Below are positions 2,884 through 47,400 of a stretch of 64,000 bases of DNA, piece by piece. This DNA comes from Paralichthys olivaceus. Its lineage: Eukaryota > Chordata > Actinopteri > Pleuronectiformes > Paralichthyidae. How positions within the stretch are numbered: position 1 is the stretch's first letter; every line of letters begins with the position of its first letter. The notes under the pieces were generated by a model. It made no database searches and had not been told where the DNA came from. It saw only the letters and a program-made list of their open reading frames with translations. The stretch spans positions 284,001 to 348,000 of the forward strand of contig NC_091108.1 in NCBI RefSeq assembly GCF_024713975.1, read 5' to 3'. The position numbers and the translations under genes were made by a program.

Positions 2884-14769
<11,886 letters not shown>

Positions 14770-29100: not shown

Positions 29101-30712
29101 GAGCGAGAGAGAGAGAGAGGCAGTGGTGCATCATCAGATTCAGCTTTTACGAGTTGTTTTCATGAAAACAATGATAATAATCACACGAAGTCAGTGACAT
29201 TTAGTAAAAAATAAGTGAGGCAGAGAGACAGAATGAAGGAGAGAAGCACTCAGTGCATGATGGGAAATCTCCCTCAGGACTCTCCTGATCCAGAACTATA
29301 GACTTTATCAAAAAGGAACGTTTTAATTTAACTTTAAATATAGAGATGGTGTCTGACTCCTGAACCCAGAGTGGGAGCTGGTTCCACAGGAGAGGAGCCT
29401 GGTAGCTGAAGGTTCTACCTCCTGTTCTCCTCTTACAGACTCTAGAACCCAGAGTGGGAGCTGGTTCCACAGGAGAGGAGCCTGGTAGCTGAAGGTTCTA
29501 CCTCCTGTTCTCCTCTTACAGACTCTAGAACCACAGGAGAACCTGTGTTTTGGTAGTGAACTGATCTTTCTGGATGACACGGTGTTATCAGCTCTTTGAC
29601 ATATGAAGGTTTGATTGTTAAGGTTTAAATGTGAGGAGCAGGATCTTGATATTCTGGATTTTACAGGGAGCTGATGTAGAGAAGACAGGAGTAATATGAT
29701 GTCTCCTTCTACTTCCTGTCAGCACTCTGCTGCAGCACTTTGGACAGTAATCTAGTCTAGAGAGTTTCTCAGCGTCCTTTTGAGACGGGATGTTTCAAAT
29801 CTTAATAATATAACATCCTCCTGACTGTCCTCCTGCCCATCCTCCTGTCCCTCTTTCTGTCCATCAGTTCTGTCCACAGCTCTGGACCTCGTGGACCTCA
29901 GCGAGCCGGGGGAGGTCAGTGGGGGGAGGAAGAGGAGTCCTCTGAGGAGGAAGGGCAGCTCGATGAGTCCTCGACGCCGAGCATGTCCTGAGGAGACAGA
30001 GCTGATCCAGGTGGAGGTGGATCACCTGCCCGTCCGACACACAACACCTGAGCGGATGTCACTGGACTCAGGTAAGGGAACCCCGCCCCCGCTCATTTTG
30101 TTAAAAGCTTTTTAATCTGAGCTTTTACTCTGATGAGACTAACTTCCTGCTACTCATCGTTTCGTTGTCATGGTTACAGTCAGTCTGTCGTCTCCTCTGG
30201 ACAAATGGAATGAGGTGAATCTGGACGTGGAGGACGGAGGACATAGGAGGACACATGAGAATAGATGCACCTCCCATCACTCCTCCAGTGAACTGCTGTG
30301 GTAAAAATCATTATCTCTGCTGGAGTGATCACTGCTGCCTCTAGGTGGTGCTAACGCTAACAACAGCTCTGTATGTTCCTGCTGCAGGTCGGCAGAGTTC
30401 AAGACTGATCCAGGGACCAAGAGCGTCCACAGCTTCACCTCGTCACCACAGGTACTACCACTACTCACACTGTAGTACTACTGCAGTACCACTACTCATA
30501 CTGTAGTACTACTGCAGTACCACTACTCACACTGTAATACTACTGCAGTACCACTACTCACACTGTAGTACTACTGCAGTACCACTACTCACACTGTAGT
30601 ACTACTGCAGTAACACTACTCACACTGTAATACTACTGCAGTACCACTACTCACACTATAGTACTACTTTTTTAGTAGTATTACCTGAGCTGCCTTTTAA
30701 AGACTCTCACAA

Positions 30713-30761
<49 letters not shown>

Positions 30762-33700
30762 TTTGTTTGTTTAGGACTGTGGGGCGTCCAGACAGCGAAG
30801 ACGAACTCGTTGCGTTCTGAACAGAAACGAGTCTCAGGAGGACGAGTTTGTCAGAGCTAAGGCTGCTGTCGAAGTACACACTGACACACACACTCACAAA
30901 CTCACACAAACTCACGCACACTCACAAACTCACACACACACACATCATCTGAGTTGATTGGTGTGGATGAGTTTGTGATGTTCTGCTCTTCAATCCTCTG
31001 TCAACCAATCACAACGTCCGCTCTGATTGATGAGCCGCTGATTAAAACCTCTTCCTGATGTTTTTATCCTCGGAGACGAGGTCAGAGTGAAACGTTTACA
31101 GTCGGTCAGAGAAAACACAGAAACCAGGCGTCAGAACATTTATCAACAGGAACCTTCTGTTTATTTAACTGAAATATTTGACTTAAGTATTCAATTTCAG
31201 GGGTCAGAGGTCAAAGGTCACTGTGACTTCCCAAGTCAAGAACTCTCATGTTATCATGAAGCTGATTGGCTCTGACAGGCTCTGAATTCAAGCTGTGGAA
31301 CTGAGGTTCTGTAAGAACAAATCCATGATCCTGCATCATTCGACTCAAAGGAACTGATCTGAACCTAGTCCGGTTCTGCAGGATCAGTTTATGAGACCCT
31401 TATTAAAAAACACAATGAAAAAAGCCCAACATTTTGTTGTTTGAAATCATGCTGATGTGGATTTGGTTGACGTGAGCCTGTTTTTCAGTCGGACACTGAG
31501 TTCTGGGATAAGATGCAGGCAGAGTGGGAGGAACTCGCTCGGAGAAACTGGCTGGAGGACTCCGAGGATCAGCGGCCGATCCCGCCCACCGTCTCACCTG
31601 TGGAGAAGGTGAGTTTGAACCCTGGGCCTTGTAGACCTGTACATCTGTATTCGTGCCAGATGACCTGAAGTAAACCTGGACCTGCTGAGTTTCCCAGACT
31701 GCATTTCACATTTCTCTTTGTTCATTCAGACTCATTGATACAAAGTGAGAGTTTTTAACAATGACAGATTATTACTGAGGGGGACGTTCGTGGTATTAAT
31801 CTGTCGATTGAATCCTCAGTAATCCGAAATAATCCCGTCTCTGCTTGGGTGTTACATCACCATGGTGACGGAGGTGACGTTGATTTGATGTCGACATGAT
31901 GTCAAACATCTGTTCACTCTGCTGAATCAGATTCACACTTTCATCTTCCTTCTGTTCTTCATTCACTAGTTTCATTCTCACAAACAAAAAAGAGTGGAGA
32001 GAAGAGAGAGAGAGACAATGGGAGGACAAACATAATCATTGACATGTATTAAAATAAATAAATGAGTGTGTGTGTGTGGGGGGGGGAACTTTAGACTTTA
32101 TCAAAGAGGAACGTTTTAATTTAACTTTAAATGTAGAGATGGTGTCTGACTCCTGAACCCAGAGTGGGAGCTGGTTCCACAGGAGAGGAGCCTGGTAGCT
32201 GAAGGTTCTACCTCCTGTTCCCCTCTTACAGACTCTAGAACCCAGAGTGGGAGCTGGTTCCACAGGAGAGGAGCCTGGTAGCTGAAGGTTCTACCTCCTG
32301 TTCTCCTCTTACAGACTCTAGAACCCAGAGTGGGAGCTGGTTCCACAGGAGAGGAGCCTGGTAGCTGAAGGTTCTACCTCCTGTTCTCCTCTTACAGACT
32401 CTAGAACCCAGAGTGGGAGCTGGTTCCACAGGAGAGGAGCCTGGTAGCTGAAGGTTCTACCTCCTGTTCTCCTCTTACTGACTCTAGAACCCAGAGTGGG
32501 AGCTGGTTCCACAGGAGAGGAGCCTGGTAGCTGAAGGTTCTACCTCCTGTTCTCCTCTTACAGACTCTAGAACCCAGAGTGGGAGCTGGTTCCACAGGAG
32601 AGGAGCCTGGTAGCTGAAGGTTCTACCTCCTGTTCTCCTCTTACAGACTCTAGAACCCAGAGTGGGAGCTGGTTCCACAGGAGAGGAGCCTGGTAGCTGA
32701 AGGTTCTACCTCCTGTTCTCCTCTTACAGACTCTAGAACCACAGGAGAACCTGTGTTTTGGTAGTGAACTGATCTTTCTGGATGACACGGTGTTATCAGC
32801 TCTTTGACGTATGAAGGTTTGATTGTTAAGGTTTAAATGTGAGGAGCAGGATCTTGATCTTCTGGATTTTACAGGGAGCTGATGTAGAGAAGACAGGAGT
32901 AATATGATGTCTCCTTCTACTTCCTGTCAGCACTCTGCTGCAGCACTTTGACCAACTGGAGACCTTTCTCAGACTTCCTGTGACGTCCTGATAATAAAGA
33001 GTTAATCTAGTCTAGAGAACAAATGGACGAGTTTCTCAGCGTCCTTCTGAGACAGGATGTTTCTAATGTTCTTAATATTGTGCAGGTGGAAGAAAGCTGT
33101 CCTAGAGACTTGTTCTATGTGTTGGTCAAATGTCCTGGTCCAACATAACTCAAGGTTCCTCACAGTGGAGCTGGAGGACAAACTGACACCAAGGTGACTC
33201 TGTTCAGACAGTGATTCTCTGAGATGTTGAGGGTCAATGACAACGACCTCAGTCTGAATTAGAAGCAAGAAGTTCTGGCTCATCCAGGCCTTGATGTTCT
33301 GGAGACGTTCCTGAAGTTGAACTAAGTGATTAGATTCATCAGGCTTCAGAGAAATGTACAGCTGGGTGTCGTCTGCGTAACAATGGAAGAGTCTGTGGAG
33401 CTTTCTGATGATGTTGCCTAAGGGAGCATATATAAGGTGAAGAGTATCGGTCCAAGGACAGAACCTTGTTGAACTCCATGACTAACTTGCATGTGCATGG
33501 GGGGTGGGGGGGCATTGTTGACGTTAACAAACTGAAATCTATCTGATAGATTTGATTGAAACCAGTCTGATGTTCCTCTGATCCCTTCATGTTGTTCTAG
33601 TCTCTGTGATCTTATGATCTATGGTGTCAAATGCTGCACTAAGATCCAACAGGACGAGGACAGAGACAAGTCCATCATCTGAGGCCATGAAAAGGTCATG

Positions 33701-41415: not shown

Positions 41416-44400
41416 TCAGTTTGCCTGCAGGTACCGAACAGAGAAGTCCTCCAGCTGAGTCTCCAGCTCTGTGGCTCTGTTCCTGTCAGTCAACAACAAG
41501 TCAATCAGTCTTTAATGATATTGGTTATACACATGCAATAGTTCTACTCTCACTGCTTTTATGTTAAACACTCAACATGTCATATTTCTGCCACCAGGGG
41601 GCTTCTCAGTCAGAACAATAACTACAGAGGGAATTTGTTGTGGTGATGCAGCGTGCGATTATGGGAGTTGTAGTCTCCTCCAAGGCCCTGTACTACATAA
41701 AGTACTGTTCCACATATCCACGATCTCTTTCAGTTATCCAGCTGAACTTAACCTAACAATCACAGTCAGGCTAAGTGGTCACATGAAGCTGATTTAAACT
41801 TATGAAGTTAACTCAGGTTTTCCTCTGGATATGAGGGGGGCGGAGTTTACTGCATATGACCAATCACAGATGTGGACAGAGCTAAGGATCAAACTGTTGA
41901 ATAATAAAAATCCGAGGAGAACCAACATCCAGAATAACAAGTATCATAACTGTGTGGGACAGTTTTAGTCTTTCAGGTGAAACCCTGGTGGCTTCAAGCT
42001 CAGCTGGAGGAAATAAAACACAAATATACTGTAAAGATGGAAGTAGACTGATTTTCATATTATGTATTACATATCATAACACTGATTCTATTTCTACTGT
42101 ATAAGGACATCAGTGCGCACATGTACAATGAGGTTTGAAAACAAGTCAGATACGAAAAAGAAAATCAGTAGAAAAAAATAAAGAACAATAGAAACTAAAG
42201 TAAAGACTTTAATGTGTACAATGATAACTGTAGATTGTGTTGAGCTCCTCTGCATCAGCCACAGTGAACAGGTAACACGTGAAGAAGAGTCAGAGGTCAA
42301 ACTCAGCTTCATCATAAAAATCAAACGGGGCGTCTCTGAGGGGCGGAGCTGCCGCTAACTTAAAACATGACGGACACATGACAGCTTCCAAAAGTGAACC
42401 CATAACATCTGACACCCCCTGGTGGCTGGCTGCAGGATTGGTCATTGATCCTGCCTCCTCCTCCAGAATGAATGAATGAAAAACTGTTTCCTTGATTGAA
42501 TCCAGAGATTTCTGCAGAATAGAAAGATGGTGTCTCTGGGTTCAATCTTGAATTAAGATCTGATCTGAGCTCAGGTGTGAGCGTGACCTCTGACCTGAAG
42601 GCCTTCGACCTCCTCTGGATGTTCTCCAGTCTCTGGATCCTGAGGCTCAGCTGTCGGACGTTTCCCTCCAGCTCGGCTTCGCTCAGGTCGACTCTCTGAC
42701 TCAGGCGGCTGAACGTCGCCATCAGTTCCCTCCGACACAAACACAAATCAAAGCTCAGATTATGGTTGTAACCGAGCCACTGTGAGTGACAGGTGGGGGG
42801 TGGGCTTACTTGCACACCTGCTGACTGCAGGCGGAGCTTGTGACGGGGATGACGGTTCTGAGGCGGCGGGCGGCGTGCTCCACAAACTGCTGCTTCAGAA
42901 CACGCTCCCTGCTGATGTCAGTCCAGGTCAGTTTCTCATACAGGTACAGGAGACCATACAGAGAGAGAGAGAGAGCGACGAGACGCCAGCCCACAGACCG
43001 CCACACCTGAGACACACCAGAGACACACACCAGAGACACACCTGAGACACACACCAGAGACACACCAGAGACACACACCAGAGACACACCTGAGACACAC
43101 CTGAGACACACACCCGAGACACACACCAGAGACACACACATACACAAAGTAACGTACCACTCCACCGATCACCAGAACCGTCATTGATGCTCGGGAGGTG
43201 ACAGAGACAAGGCCTGTCGCTATGGAAACCACCATCTCATCCTTAAAGCTGGAGGCATTCTGCAGAGACACAAAGTTACAACAGAGCGACACTGACGAAC
43301 AGCTGCTAGGGATCGAACCTCAGAGACCTGACCTGAGGCCGCGGCTCGCAGCTGCCCAGTGCTCGCTTTGCGTTGGCGGCTCCGATGAAGCGAGTGACGA
43401 GGGCGGTCCAGCCCAGAGAGAACTGAAACTCGATGTTCTCCTGAAAATCTGCACAGAGGACCGCAAGGCCGAGGTCATAGGTCAGCTCGAAGGAGCTGGA
43501 GGAGGAAGCAGAGAGCTGCTCCTGGACAGACAGAGACAGCAGAGGACGGACGCTGTCTGAGGATGGAGCAGAAACAAAAGAAGAACCTTTCAACCACACT
43601 GTCATCATGCAACACGTGAGCAGGATGTCGTCCAGAGTCTGAGGAAGAAGTGGGACGCTGCCATTACCGATCATGTGTCTCTGGGTGTCCCTAATGTCTC
43701 TGAGGATGCCGATGGAGCAGCGATGAGCCAAACAGCCGACCAGCCTCTCCTCCACGTGCTGGAGCAGCTTCTGAGAAGAGATGAGACTGGAACCTGTTTT
43801 CTTCTTCTTTCTTCTCTCAGACATGAACAATGACGGCTGAAGCCAAATGAGATGTCGGCTTTTACAGAGAATTTTTTATTTCTATTTATCTTCCAGATAA
43901 TTGAACCAGATTTTCCCGCCATGCTGCACCGTTAGCTTCTTTGAGCCACTGCAGTTGCTGCAGCTCAGCTGCCCTCATAGCTAGTGCTTTAGCAGTCACT
44001 GTTTTGCAATGAATCATGGGGCTTGAACCTGGTCACTGGTCTCATATCCAACAATACGATCGTCTGGAAACAGACGACCCAACGTTGCCCTCTTGTGATT
44101 TCAACTACCTCTGACTTTAACAACTCAAAATGTTTGTCGACATCACAACATGTTTCACTCACAGTTTTATAGATCTGCAGAGTCTCATGTGTCGGACTGA
44201 AGTCGCACCTGAACTCCTCCACCAGGACAGGAAGTGAACGAGTCTGATCTGAGAGAGCTGAGGTCACCTGATCAGAAACACTTGAATGAACATCAGAGAG
44301 AGAAGAACGAGCTGAAATTACAGAAACATCTTTACAAACATTAATTTAAGGTCTACTTTGAGTTTTAGTTTGGTTCCTGTCCCATCTGCTAACATGGAGG

Positions 44401-47400
44401 AGGTTTATGCTCTAAACCGCAGCCAGACACCAGGGGGCGACTGGTATGTTTTAGCTTAACTTTTAGGAGCTGTCATGTCATCCATCGTTATTGACAGTGT
44501 GTGTTGTGAAGCTACATTAGGAAGATTTCTTCACCTTGGCAGCGACATCATCACTCAGAGTCTTGATCTTATCTCTCACGTTGTCGCTCAGACGGTTAAT
44601 CTGTCCTCGGACAAAGTCCAGCCGGTCCCTCTGCTCCTCTCGCTCCTCCAGGCAGCAGATCCTGACAGAGGTCAGAGGTCAGAGTCAGACACAGGAGGAC
44701 ATTATGAAACAATGAGTTTGTCGGTCTCCCTCACTTTCTGTCAGCAGAGGCGATGTTGATGTCGTCCATCACAGCTTTGATGGCCTCAGTGATCTGCCAC
44801 GCTGTCACCGTGTGCTGCTCAAACTTGGTTTTCACCGCAGACTGAGAGATGAACTCCTGCAGGGTCAGAGGTCATTCACAGTCACAGCTCGGCACAAAGC
44901 ATCGGCCTCAGAGCAAACACTGAATCTGCTGCGTACCTCGAACGTCCTCTCAAAGCTTTGAAACTCCCTCAGTCTGTCGTGGAAACCTTCAGCCAGAGCG
45001 CCACCTGCAGGTAGATACAGGATGTTCAGTTTCACTTTGATGGAGCGGTCAGCTGATCCACGTCAGGTCAGGTCACCGGGTATTATTTTAGCTGCTATAG
45101 TTACACCTGGTGCTCGAGGTAGGAGTGCTGAGGGAATGCAGCACCCTCCCCTGGTGAGGAGCTGTCACTGCATAATACATTTACAATCCAATGTGACATA
45201 GATACATTTACAGGTGATTCTGACCAAGCAAAACATTTAGTTCAATAATATCTGTTGTTGTGTGAAATGATTTAAAGCTGGTTTGTTATTGATACGAACG
45301 TGATGAATGTTTTTATTTAATACAAAATCATGGTACAGACTTTCTCTCTGAGCCACACCTGACTGACTTCCAGCGTCTCTAAAGATCCACATGTCCCCTG
45401 TGAGATGATGACAGTATGATCACATGATCATAAAGTTTGACCTTCGATCTTTGACCTGATTTGTTGATCGATGACTTTATATAAAGACGAACCGTCAAAC
45501 AAACATCAGAGAGATAAGAACGAGCTGAAATGACAGAAACGTCTGTGACAAACATTTATTTAACATCTACTTTGATTTTTAGTTTGGTCCATGTCCCATC
45601 TGCTAACATGGAGGTTTATGACCTGTACTGCAGCCAGACACCAGAAGGCATTGGAGATGCTTTGGCTTTATTTTTGGGAGCTGTCATGTCATCCATCTTT
45701 ATTTACGGTCTGTGGTTTGAAGTCAGCTTGTTGAACATGTTTACAATGAGAAGCTGTGATCTTTGACCTCAGCTGATCTGAGGACTGAGGACATGTTCCT
45801 CACCTGTCTCACCTGTCTCAGGCATGCCCTGCGCTCGCTGCATCCTGGAGCTCAGGACCTCTTTAGCTGAGACGAAGAAGATCCTCCCCGGAGCCTCGTC
45901 CAGACCGACCACCCTCAGCTCCTCAGCCAAGAAACTCACACAGCGGTCCAAGTGCTGCTTCCTCACCTGAGCAACAGGGGGCACACACGCTGCAGTTTTA
46001 CATAACTTCACCTTCTGTATATTTCAGTGAGGCTGTTTGTGTCGTACGTCTGAGAGTCAGTTACACGAGTTTCTCTGTCTTTGGACAGTTCTATTATTTC
46101 TTAAAGGAAAAATTCAGATCTTAACAGGAAGTAGTTCCTTCAGCTGATTCACAATAAAGCCCTTTCTTAAAGAGAGAGCTGATGCAGGCTTTTACTGCAG
46201 GAACACACACACGCACACACACACCTCCTCCATGTACTCGGGTTCGGTGACTGAAGCGTCCCATCTGTTGTGCAGGATGAAGATATTCGGTTTGGAAATT
46301 CTCTCACTGACTTTGTGAAAGAAAAGTTTCTCCTGAAAACAGAAGATGAAAAATTTAAGGAATAAAACTCATCTTCGTCTTTTGTCCTTCGCATACATCT
46401 GTCATTCACAGGTCGTCCTGTAGGGGGGTCCTCACCGTGTTCATCAGCGTCGACTCTGCGTTTCCCACAAGCACAAAGACGTCGGCGTCCAGACAGAACT
46501 TATCGATCCAGCTGTCCAACTCCAGAGTCACGTCAGTCCCAGGACTGAGTCAAAGTTCAGAGATGACAACAGGTTGGATTAAGTGTTTCCTGCTGCTGTG
46601 ACCTTTAACTTTTTATCTAGTCATCGTAGCATCAGAACAAGTTTCTCACAAACACACAGGTAGGGAGGGAGGGAGGGAGGGAGGGAGGGAGGGAGAGAGG
46701 AAGAGAGAGAGAGAGAGAGGGAGGTTTCAGGTCAACAGTTACCTGTCCATCAGGTAAAGACAGTGTTACCTGTCCATCAGATAAAGACAGTGTTACCTGT
46801 CCATCAGATAAAGACAGTGTTACCTGTCCATCAGGTAAAGACAGTGTTACCTGTCCATCAGGTAAAGACAGTGTTACCTGTCCATCAGGTAAAGACAGTG
46901 TTACCTGTCCATCAGATAAAGACAGTGCTACCTGTCCATCAGGTAAAGACAGTGTTACCTGTCCATCAGCACCAGGTCGTCTCTCAGCAGAGCGCAGCAA
47001 CTTTTAGGCCAGAACACTCTGACGAGGCTGCCGGAATCTAGAGTTGGATCCATGTGGAGCGCGTGAGCGAGCTGGTTGACCGTCTGTGGGCGAGGACAGA
47101 GATGTCAGACATGACCAGATTCAGTAAACCTCAGGTCACTTCATTTAATGAGTAAAGAAAAACGTACAGTGACGCTCCGCCTCTCATTGGACGCCTCGGT
47201 GGTGAGGTAAGCCTCGTCTCCGTCGGTTCCTTCCACCCTCAGGAAGCAGTTGGTGGTGTGACCAATGCCGCTGGGCAACACTCGGTCTCTCAACATGGCG
47301 TTGATCACGGTACTTTTCCCGTTACTAGTTCTGAACATCATACATATGAAACACGTGACCATTACCTGAAAATCTGAGTTGTATTTTTTTGGTTCTATTT

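Follow-up and report, generated by a model that had tools for sequence, protein, structure and literature searches.

Tandem alternative 5' splice sites usually consist of one or two extra donors and are often conserved. The choice of the spliceosome among identical donors has been studied mostly with two-site minigenes. The array described here, in intron 4 of mfn1, is like such sites, and like poison exons, in that several donors share one acceptor and the unproductive forms contain a stop. It differs in that its nine donors are repeat-derived and show no sign of conservation in the one genome and the paralogs examined. SRSF1 is described as influencing the choice between two donors (PMC5585400).

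Tandem duplication of an AGGT sequence is a described source of introns, represented by the Rogers model and the ATP2A1 case (PMC4974935). In fission yeast, the introns of SPOG_01682/SOCG_00815 are made of several 24-nucleotide repeats; the same source gives the proto-splice site as AGGC and asks for further work on one of its two cases (PMC3629103). The mfn1 array is similar to these in that copying an AG/GT segment (the slash marks the splice boundary) leaves the copied block with a GT at one end and an AG at the other. Unlike them, it copies an existing junction, lengthens an old intron, and has more units.

Recursive splice sites, or ratchet points, also consist of a juxtaposed AG/GT, the use of which leaves zero bases (PMC8605326). 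They occur mostly in long introns, the examined cases having one or two of them each, and donor competition at ratchet points is described in Drosophila (PMC8605326). The arrays reported here are of tandem-repeat origin and have 8 (mfn1) or 44 (tsen2) boundaries in a row, which are candidate sites. A further likeness is with intron 1 of the Sparus aurata growth hormone gene, which contains a polymorphic minisatellite said by citing papers to repress the activity of the gene (PMC4848999, PMC3045353); the mfn1 array is also an intronic minisatellite of a fish gene, a comparison made via those citing papers. The position of the repeat within the Sparus intron is not stated in the part of PMC3361217 that was consulted. 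No report of a minisatellite unit carrying the donor of its own host intron was found among the open-access papers listed, as judged by titles and the beginnings of abstracts.

We read the mfn1 array as a minisatellite that spans a splice junction close to a chromosome end, and as probably (about 0.6) a tolerated, leaky by-product rather than an evolved switch. A hypermutable class of DNA that can capture a splice junction offers a route by which introns may vary in length and gene output may differ between individuals.

The mfn1 gene and its 27-bp array

The window (the whole stretch of 64,000 nucleotides that was analysed) is C16:284001-348000 of a genome of 588 Mb assembled into 25 contigs, and lies less than 350 kb from the start of a 23.8-Mb contig. 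The size of the genome and its three mitofusin loci point to a teleost. Positions within mfn1 are those of the window. In the exon model, mfn1 is on the minus strand and has 17 coding exons (48128 to 41416), an unbroken frame of 719 amino acids, and GT-AG at all 16 introns. The top match of the protein in a PDB search is mitofusin-1 (E 5.5e-177), and the protein contains the Pfam domains Dynamin_N and Fzo_mitofusin.

Coding exon 4 (46959..47083, minus strand) is 125 nucleotides in length, has GATGGACAG at its 3' end, and leaves the D-S codon split in phase 2. Coding exon 5 (46436..46544, minus strand) starts with TCCTGGGACT and completes S-P-G. Intron 4 is 414 nucleotides long. A sequence-only reading of this DNA had placed the end of exon 4 at 46959 and the start of exon 5 at 46544, with the intron splitting the D-S-P-G motif, and the exon model agrees on all three. 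The authentic donor (donor 1; 46957..46958, minus strand) is CAG/GTAACA.

The 27-bp array (46743..46958, minus strand) has eight units of GTARCACTGTCTTTAYCTGATGGACAG, each with a donor at its start and an acceptor-like CAG at its end. The consensus of the unit is GTAACACTGTCTTTACCTGATGGACAG and variants are few, namely GTAGCA in unit 2 and a C-to-T change in units 2, 6, and 7. TRF reports the array at 46738-46969 with 8.6 copies, 97% matches, and a score of 436. In the one assembly available, the array is a minisatellite of near-identical, head-to-tail units. Decoy donors 2 to 9 (46741..46931, minus strand) were located by direct reading of the array. Their first intron bases are at 46931 (GTAGCA), at 46904, 46877, 46850, 46823, 46796, and 46769 (GTAACA), and at 46742 (GTAACT). 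The 16-base junction, composed of 8 exon and 8 intron bases, is repeated eight times in intron 4, with six exact copies, one copy with one mismatch, and one with two. Direct reading, TRF, and this junction count all bear out the eight decoy donors proposed behind exon 4. The unit had been described as the last nine exon bases plus the donor; the donor is indeed copied, and the exon tail copied with it measures 11 bases rather than nine (CTGATGGACAG). Directly 3' of the array, intron 4 contains a pyrimidine tract that reads (CTCC/CT)n on the gene strand (46658..46724, minus strand).

The 32 junctions of mfn1 (16 donors and 16 acceptors) were compared with their surroundings, allowing at most 3 mismatches in 16 bases. 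Three are repeated alongside themselves and 29 are not. Donor 4 recurs in 8 copies, acceptor 15 has 3 decoys, and donor 7 has a single copy 9 nucleotides on. A minisatellite of the (GTGTGTCTCAG)n type (43007-43157; junction array at 43007..43137, minus strand), identified by TRF and the junction scan, fills most of intron 14 and reaches the exon 15 acceptor. Its three decoy acceptors, TGTCTCAG/GTGTG, are 94, 83, and 35 nucleotides upstream of the real exon 15 acceptor, and all are frameshifting. The exon 7 donor and its copy 9 nucleotides later (45802..45812, minus strand) read ACAG/GTGAGACAG/GTGAGG. Use of this copy would add three in-frame codons, with the frame derived by hand. Two of the five arrays that TRF finds within the mfn1 coding span run over a junction, and chance seeding is enough to explain such overlaps. 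By a rough estimate, one in ten random seeds in mfn1 would touch one of its 32 junctions.

Splice signals of the array and predicted transcripts

Predicted pairing with the U1 5' end is -8.0 kcal/mol for eight of the nine donors and -7.7 kcal/mol for donor 2. A weight matrix of the 16 mfn1 donors gives 7.8 to 8.0 bits, with 4.3 bits for donor 2. The remaining GTs of intron 4 have a predicted U1 pairing never better than -4.4 kcal/mol. The nine donors had been called equivalent, which fits the eight with equal predicted pairing; donor 2 (GTAGCA) falls short by both pairing and matrix.

All eight extended forms of exon 4 (152 to 341 nucleotides) have their stop at codon 181, immediately behind LVLMDR. 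The reason is that the unit length of 27 is divisible by three and that the intron opens with bases that read TAA. The sequence-only reading was right that every donor except the first leads to an immediate TAA. In each of the eight forms the premature stop has exon junctions downstream, as in poison exons and alternative splicing coupled to nonsense-mediated decay. Among identical competing donors, preference often goes to the one closest to the acceptor. Such a preference would favour donor 9 and would make mfn1 mostly unproductive. The intact frame indicates that the gene still works, contrary to a mostly unproductive mfn1.

The array also carries signals of the opposite kind. A CAG precedes the next GT at the end of every unit, and each boundary is an acceptor plus a donor. 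The eight unit-end AGs score 6.2 to 6.7 bits with a matrix of the 16 mfn1 acceptors, which is a small model. The real exon 5 acceptor scores 7.5 bits inside its own model and 2.1 bits outside it; each excluded from the model that scores it, the 16 real acceptors span 1.7 to 10.2 bits. Purines at positions -9, -8, -6, -5, and -4 of the unit-end acceptors (GATGGACAG) are unfavourable. With this 16-site model, AG/GT preceded by sequence of acceptor quality, as at a recursive site, is found at all eight unit ends. The branch-point consensus is yUnAy, and words of this kind occur twice per unit; at least two occur in 8% of shuffled units.

Blocks of three to eight units measure 81 to 216 nucleotides. 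An 81-nucleotide block is feasible as an intron because the shortest introns of mfn1 are 73 nucleotides. Excising at least three retained units (GT...AG) would restore the exact exon 4-exon 5 message; one or two retained units (27 and 54 nucleotides) would be too short for such excision. Re-splicing of this kind predicts that one or two extra copies are worse than eight. In human introns shorter than 1,000 nucleotides, lariats are described as mostly of the conventional and not the recursive kind (PMC10156609), which counts against frequent re-splicing in the mfn1 array.

As a leaky by-product, the array would have arisen by tandem duplication across the exon-intron junction in a minisatellite-prone subtelomeric region. 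Each unit would thereby bear a full 5' splice site and a CAG readable as a 3' splice site. The spliceosome would presumably draw on a mix of the nine donors, with donor 1 giving the normal mRNA. The longer forms would stop at codon 181 and enter nonsense-mediated decay unless the retained block is re-spliced. With at least three units retained, the block could be removed by splicing or by ratcheting to yield the exact exon 4-exon 5 junction, and one- or two-unit retention would be the truly lost fraction. Tolerance of such an array would rest on a donor 1 that still works, on possible repair of the longer retentions by re-splicing, and on a paralog that may serve as backup.

A silent array, in which upstream exonic enhancers and exon definition always favour donor 1 and the copies are never used, is an unlikely alternative. 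It fits the intact state of mfn1, and selection would be expected to act against an array that often disrupted splicing in a working gene. It sits poorly with the copying of the local donor sequence, which is equally strong in all copies except donor 2. Nor does folding set donor 1 apart. In a homogenised array, the accessibility of donor 1 minus that of the decoys is -0.02, a value equalled or exceeded in 29 of 100 shuffled units.

The tsen2 array and other donor-bearing repeats

A second array was identified in an intron of tsen2 (C2:392482-394027; loci L041, L046, and L047), directly after the exon and near the end of the contig. The exon before the array is AFFLVYSLGCLSVYLHQ. Joined with the preceding exon, it gives PDB matches to chains of Sen2 (8iss_B, E 8.4e-11). 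The next exon (EPLSIIQLWRKF...) follows after a 1546-nucleotide intron. The exon before the array and the next exon together match Pfam tRNA_int_endo (E 9.6e-07), with the match in the second-exon part.

The tsen2 intron opens with 44 AG/GT boundaries across approximately 1.27 kb. The donors can be sorted into two kinds: CAGGTAACT, at 8.0 bits, accounts for 15 of them and for donor 1, and CAGGTGTCT, weaker at 5.4 bits, accounts for 29. The first units are 41 bp in length and copy the exon tail TGTCTGTCTGTCTACCTGCACCAG. Any retained array gives a stop in unit 1, after V-T-N. The unit-end acceptors score 1.7 to 5.0 bits with a median of 5.0, and the real acceptor scores 9.9 bits. By these low scores, the predicted case for re-splicing is weaker for tsen2 than for mfn1. 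Branch-point-like CTAACTAAC words are present in some tsen2 repeat units.

The tsen2 and mfn1 arrays have the same architecture in a different gene and with a different unit. Fast-changing repeats can draw in splice signals, as the mfn1 array and the tsen2 array near another chromosome end demonstrate. The two genes are natural test cases, mfn1 with nine near-identical donors in the same local context and tsen2 with 45 donors of two kinds. The immediate stop in both arrays is a read-out of donor choice.

Donor-bearing repeats were searched for genome-wide with three patterns. Triples of CAGGTRA with gaps of 8 to 38 bases number 2415, versus 310 for the reversed pattern. The CAGGTRAGT search gives 202 versus 53, and the stricter CAGGTAAC triples give 375 versus 0. 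Donor-like words are over-represented in arrays by this comparison, in which the reversed word is a weak control and is silent on splicing. Many of the clusters are close to contig ends. Among the 100 of 375 CAGGTAAC matches listed in contig order, 11 of 15 hand-counted clusters are at most 1 Mb from a contig end. For CAGGTRAGT, 8 of 9 clusters are at most 0.7 Mb from a contig end (100 of 202 matches listed, in contig order). For the CAGGTRA triples, the count is 9 of 12 clusters at most 1 Mb from a contig end (100 of 2415 matches listed, in contig order), and two of these 12 were dropped because they do not look tandem.

Eighteen donor-bearing loci (10 plus 8) were inspected, and tsen2 alone was tied to an exon end by homology. 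In 16 of the 18, no sign of an exon end was seen by eye and by open-frame length, with the neighbouring exon checked for two. With one of 18 inspected loci tied to an exon end, the idea that junction arrays are the usual kind of donor-bearing minisatellite was rejected. L037 (C1:30357397) has GCCATGGTTACTTTGTTCAAGGCTGGCCCAG, two GTGAGTTTCTCCTCCAG units, and a third unit with GTGAAC; it is a candidate first-exon donor array. The array at L055 (C11:370 kb) is near a WD-repeat-like exon that is antisense to the donors, and the donor-bearing array at L042 (C2:426 kb) is near a PI3K-C2-like exon. Both are apparently within an intron and off the junction.

A broader proposal is that tandem copies of a gene's own AG/GT, removed stepwise, are a feature of genes near chromosome ends, and that mfn1 and tsen2 are members of such a class, which could be called ratchet arrays. 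The class is thinly sampled, with two genes in one genome. We hold this proposal to be doubtful, and lowered our estimate slightly because of the short-intron result (PMC10156609) and the low acceptor scores of tsen2. If it were true, any donor choice would be correctable by a further splice given at least three retained units, and introns could grow by repeat expansion at a splice site with little loss. The leak would be non-monotonic in copy number, and one or two extra copies would be worse than many.

Paralogs, RNA folding, and origin of the array

Two paralogs also have an intron at the position of mfn1 intron 4. The gene at C3:12.006 Mb, which we take to be mfn1-like, has exons 81 to 85% identical to the mfn1 query, and that at C6:1.71 Mb, presumably mfn2-like, has exons 68 to 75% identical to it. 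The C3 paralog keeps the donor CAG/GTAACA at the same position and its intron is short. The array is absent from the C3 intron, and none is present in the first approximately 110 nucleotides of the C6 intron; it is therefore specific to this mfn1 copy in this genome. In our reading, the second mfn1-like gene is a backup for mfn1. Intron gain by AGGT duplication was considered for intron 4 and rejected, since both paralogs share the intron position.

The AGGT of the unit has a higher identity than the rest of the unit in mfn1, in tsen2, and in 13 of 14 other donor-bearing arrays scored, although the search pattern itself favours an intact AGGT. L052 does not have an AGGT consensus, and L037 and L056 were left out of the comparison. 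No signal of selection on the splice motif was found, as the two junction arrays preserve AGGT no more strictly than the 14 unplaced arrays do.

These results bear on a regulatory role, in which the distal donors are regularly used and the repeat number sets the level of mfn1 through nonsense-mediated decay. We judge such a role improbable. It would agree with the stop and downstream exon junctions common to all eight alternative forms, with the nearly equal predicted strength of the donors, and with the Sparus growth hormone minisatellite cited as repressing (PMC4848999). It is opposed by the ordinary conservation of AGGT relative to donor-bearing arrays not placed at exon ends and by the existence of a paralog without the array. 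The acceptor-like unit ends also argue against it, as retention of at least three units could be spliced away. An evolved switch thus receives no support from the AGGT, paralog, and RNA-folding results; an effect on the level of mfn1 is possible.

The folding results are as follows. CAGGTAA and TTACCTG form a 7-base inverted repeat that is perfect in five of the eight units; the remaining three rely on G-U pairing. Compared with 200 dinucleotide shuffles, the array folds better than every one of them (z -3.47). When the middle 12 bases of the unit are shuffled, the energy is matched by 18 of 100 shuffles and the mildly low accessibility of the decoys by 7 of 100. In the widest local folding window, the openness of donor 1 is 0.48, whereas the decoys average approximately 0.35 and one of them reaches 0.54. 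In both of the narrower windows tried, donor 1 is unremarkable, at 0.56 and 0.53 versus 0.40 to 0.59 for the decoys, and in the global fold it is 0.38 versus 0.25 to 0.49. The idea that hairpins within each unit fold the decoys away and leave only donor 1 open was rejected as very improbable, as the folding is not specific to the unit and donor 1, somewhat more open in the widest window, is unremarkable in the narrower windows and the global fold.

The by-product reading is tied to the surroundings of the gene. Repeats with a period of at least 9 occupy a mean of 14.9% of the first six 10-kb blocks of the window, versus 0.8% of twenty mid-chromosome 10-kb samples. In such a minisatellite-rich region, a junction-spanning duplication needs no special cause. 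The richness of the window and the likeness of tsen2 favour a mutational over a regulatory origin. In six 5-kb pieces located 0.15 to 1.5 Mb from contig starts, the same repeats occupy 54.2, 10.9, 0, 8.4, 0, and 2.9%. With a range of 0 to 54.2%, the density of minisatellites near contig starts is patchy.

An ACCTG is present a few bases before CAG/GT in both exons that precede an array (window 46959-46980, and the end of the tsen2 exon), and forms an inverted repeat across the junction. This inverted repeat might help to start duplications. The C3 paralog has the same ACCTG inverted repeat, yet is without an array.

Two other repeats of the window are worth recording. An 83-bp unit forms two arrays 2.6 kb apart (29355-29532 and 32148-32740), with 97% and 99% matches within them, which suggests a very recent spread. 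At 12384-12527, 21-bp repeats (AACATGCAGGGACCCCCAGGA) could code for a proline-glycine-rich stretch.
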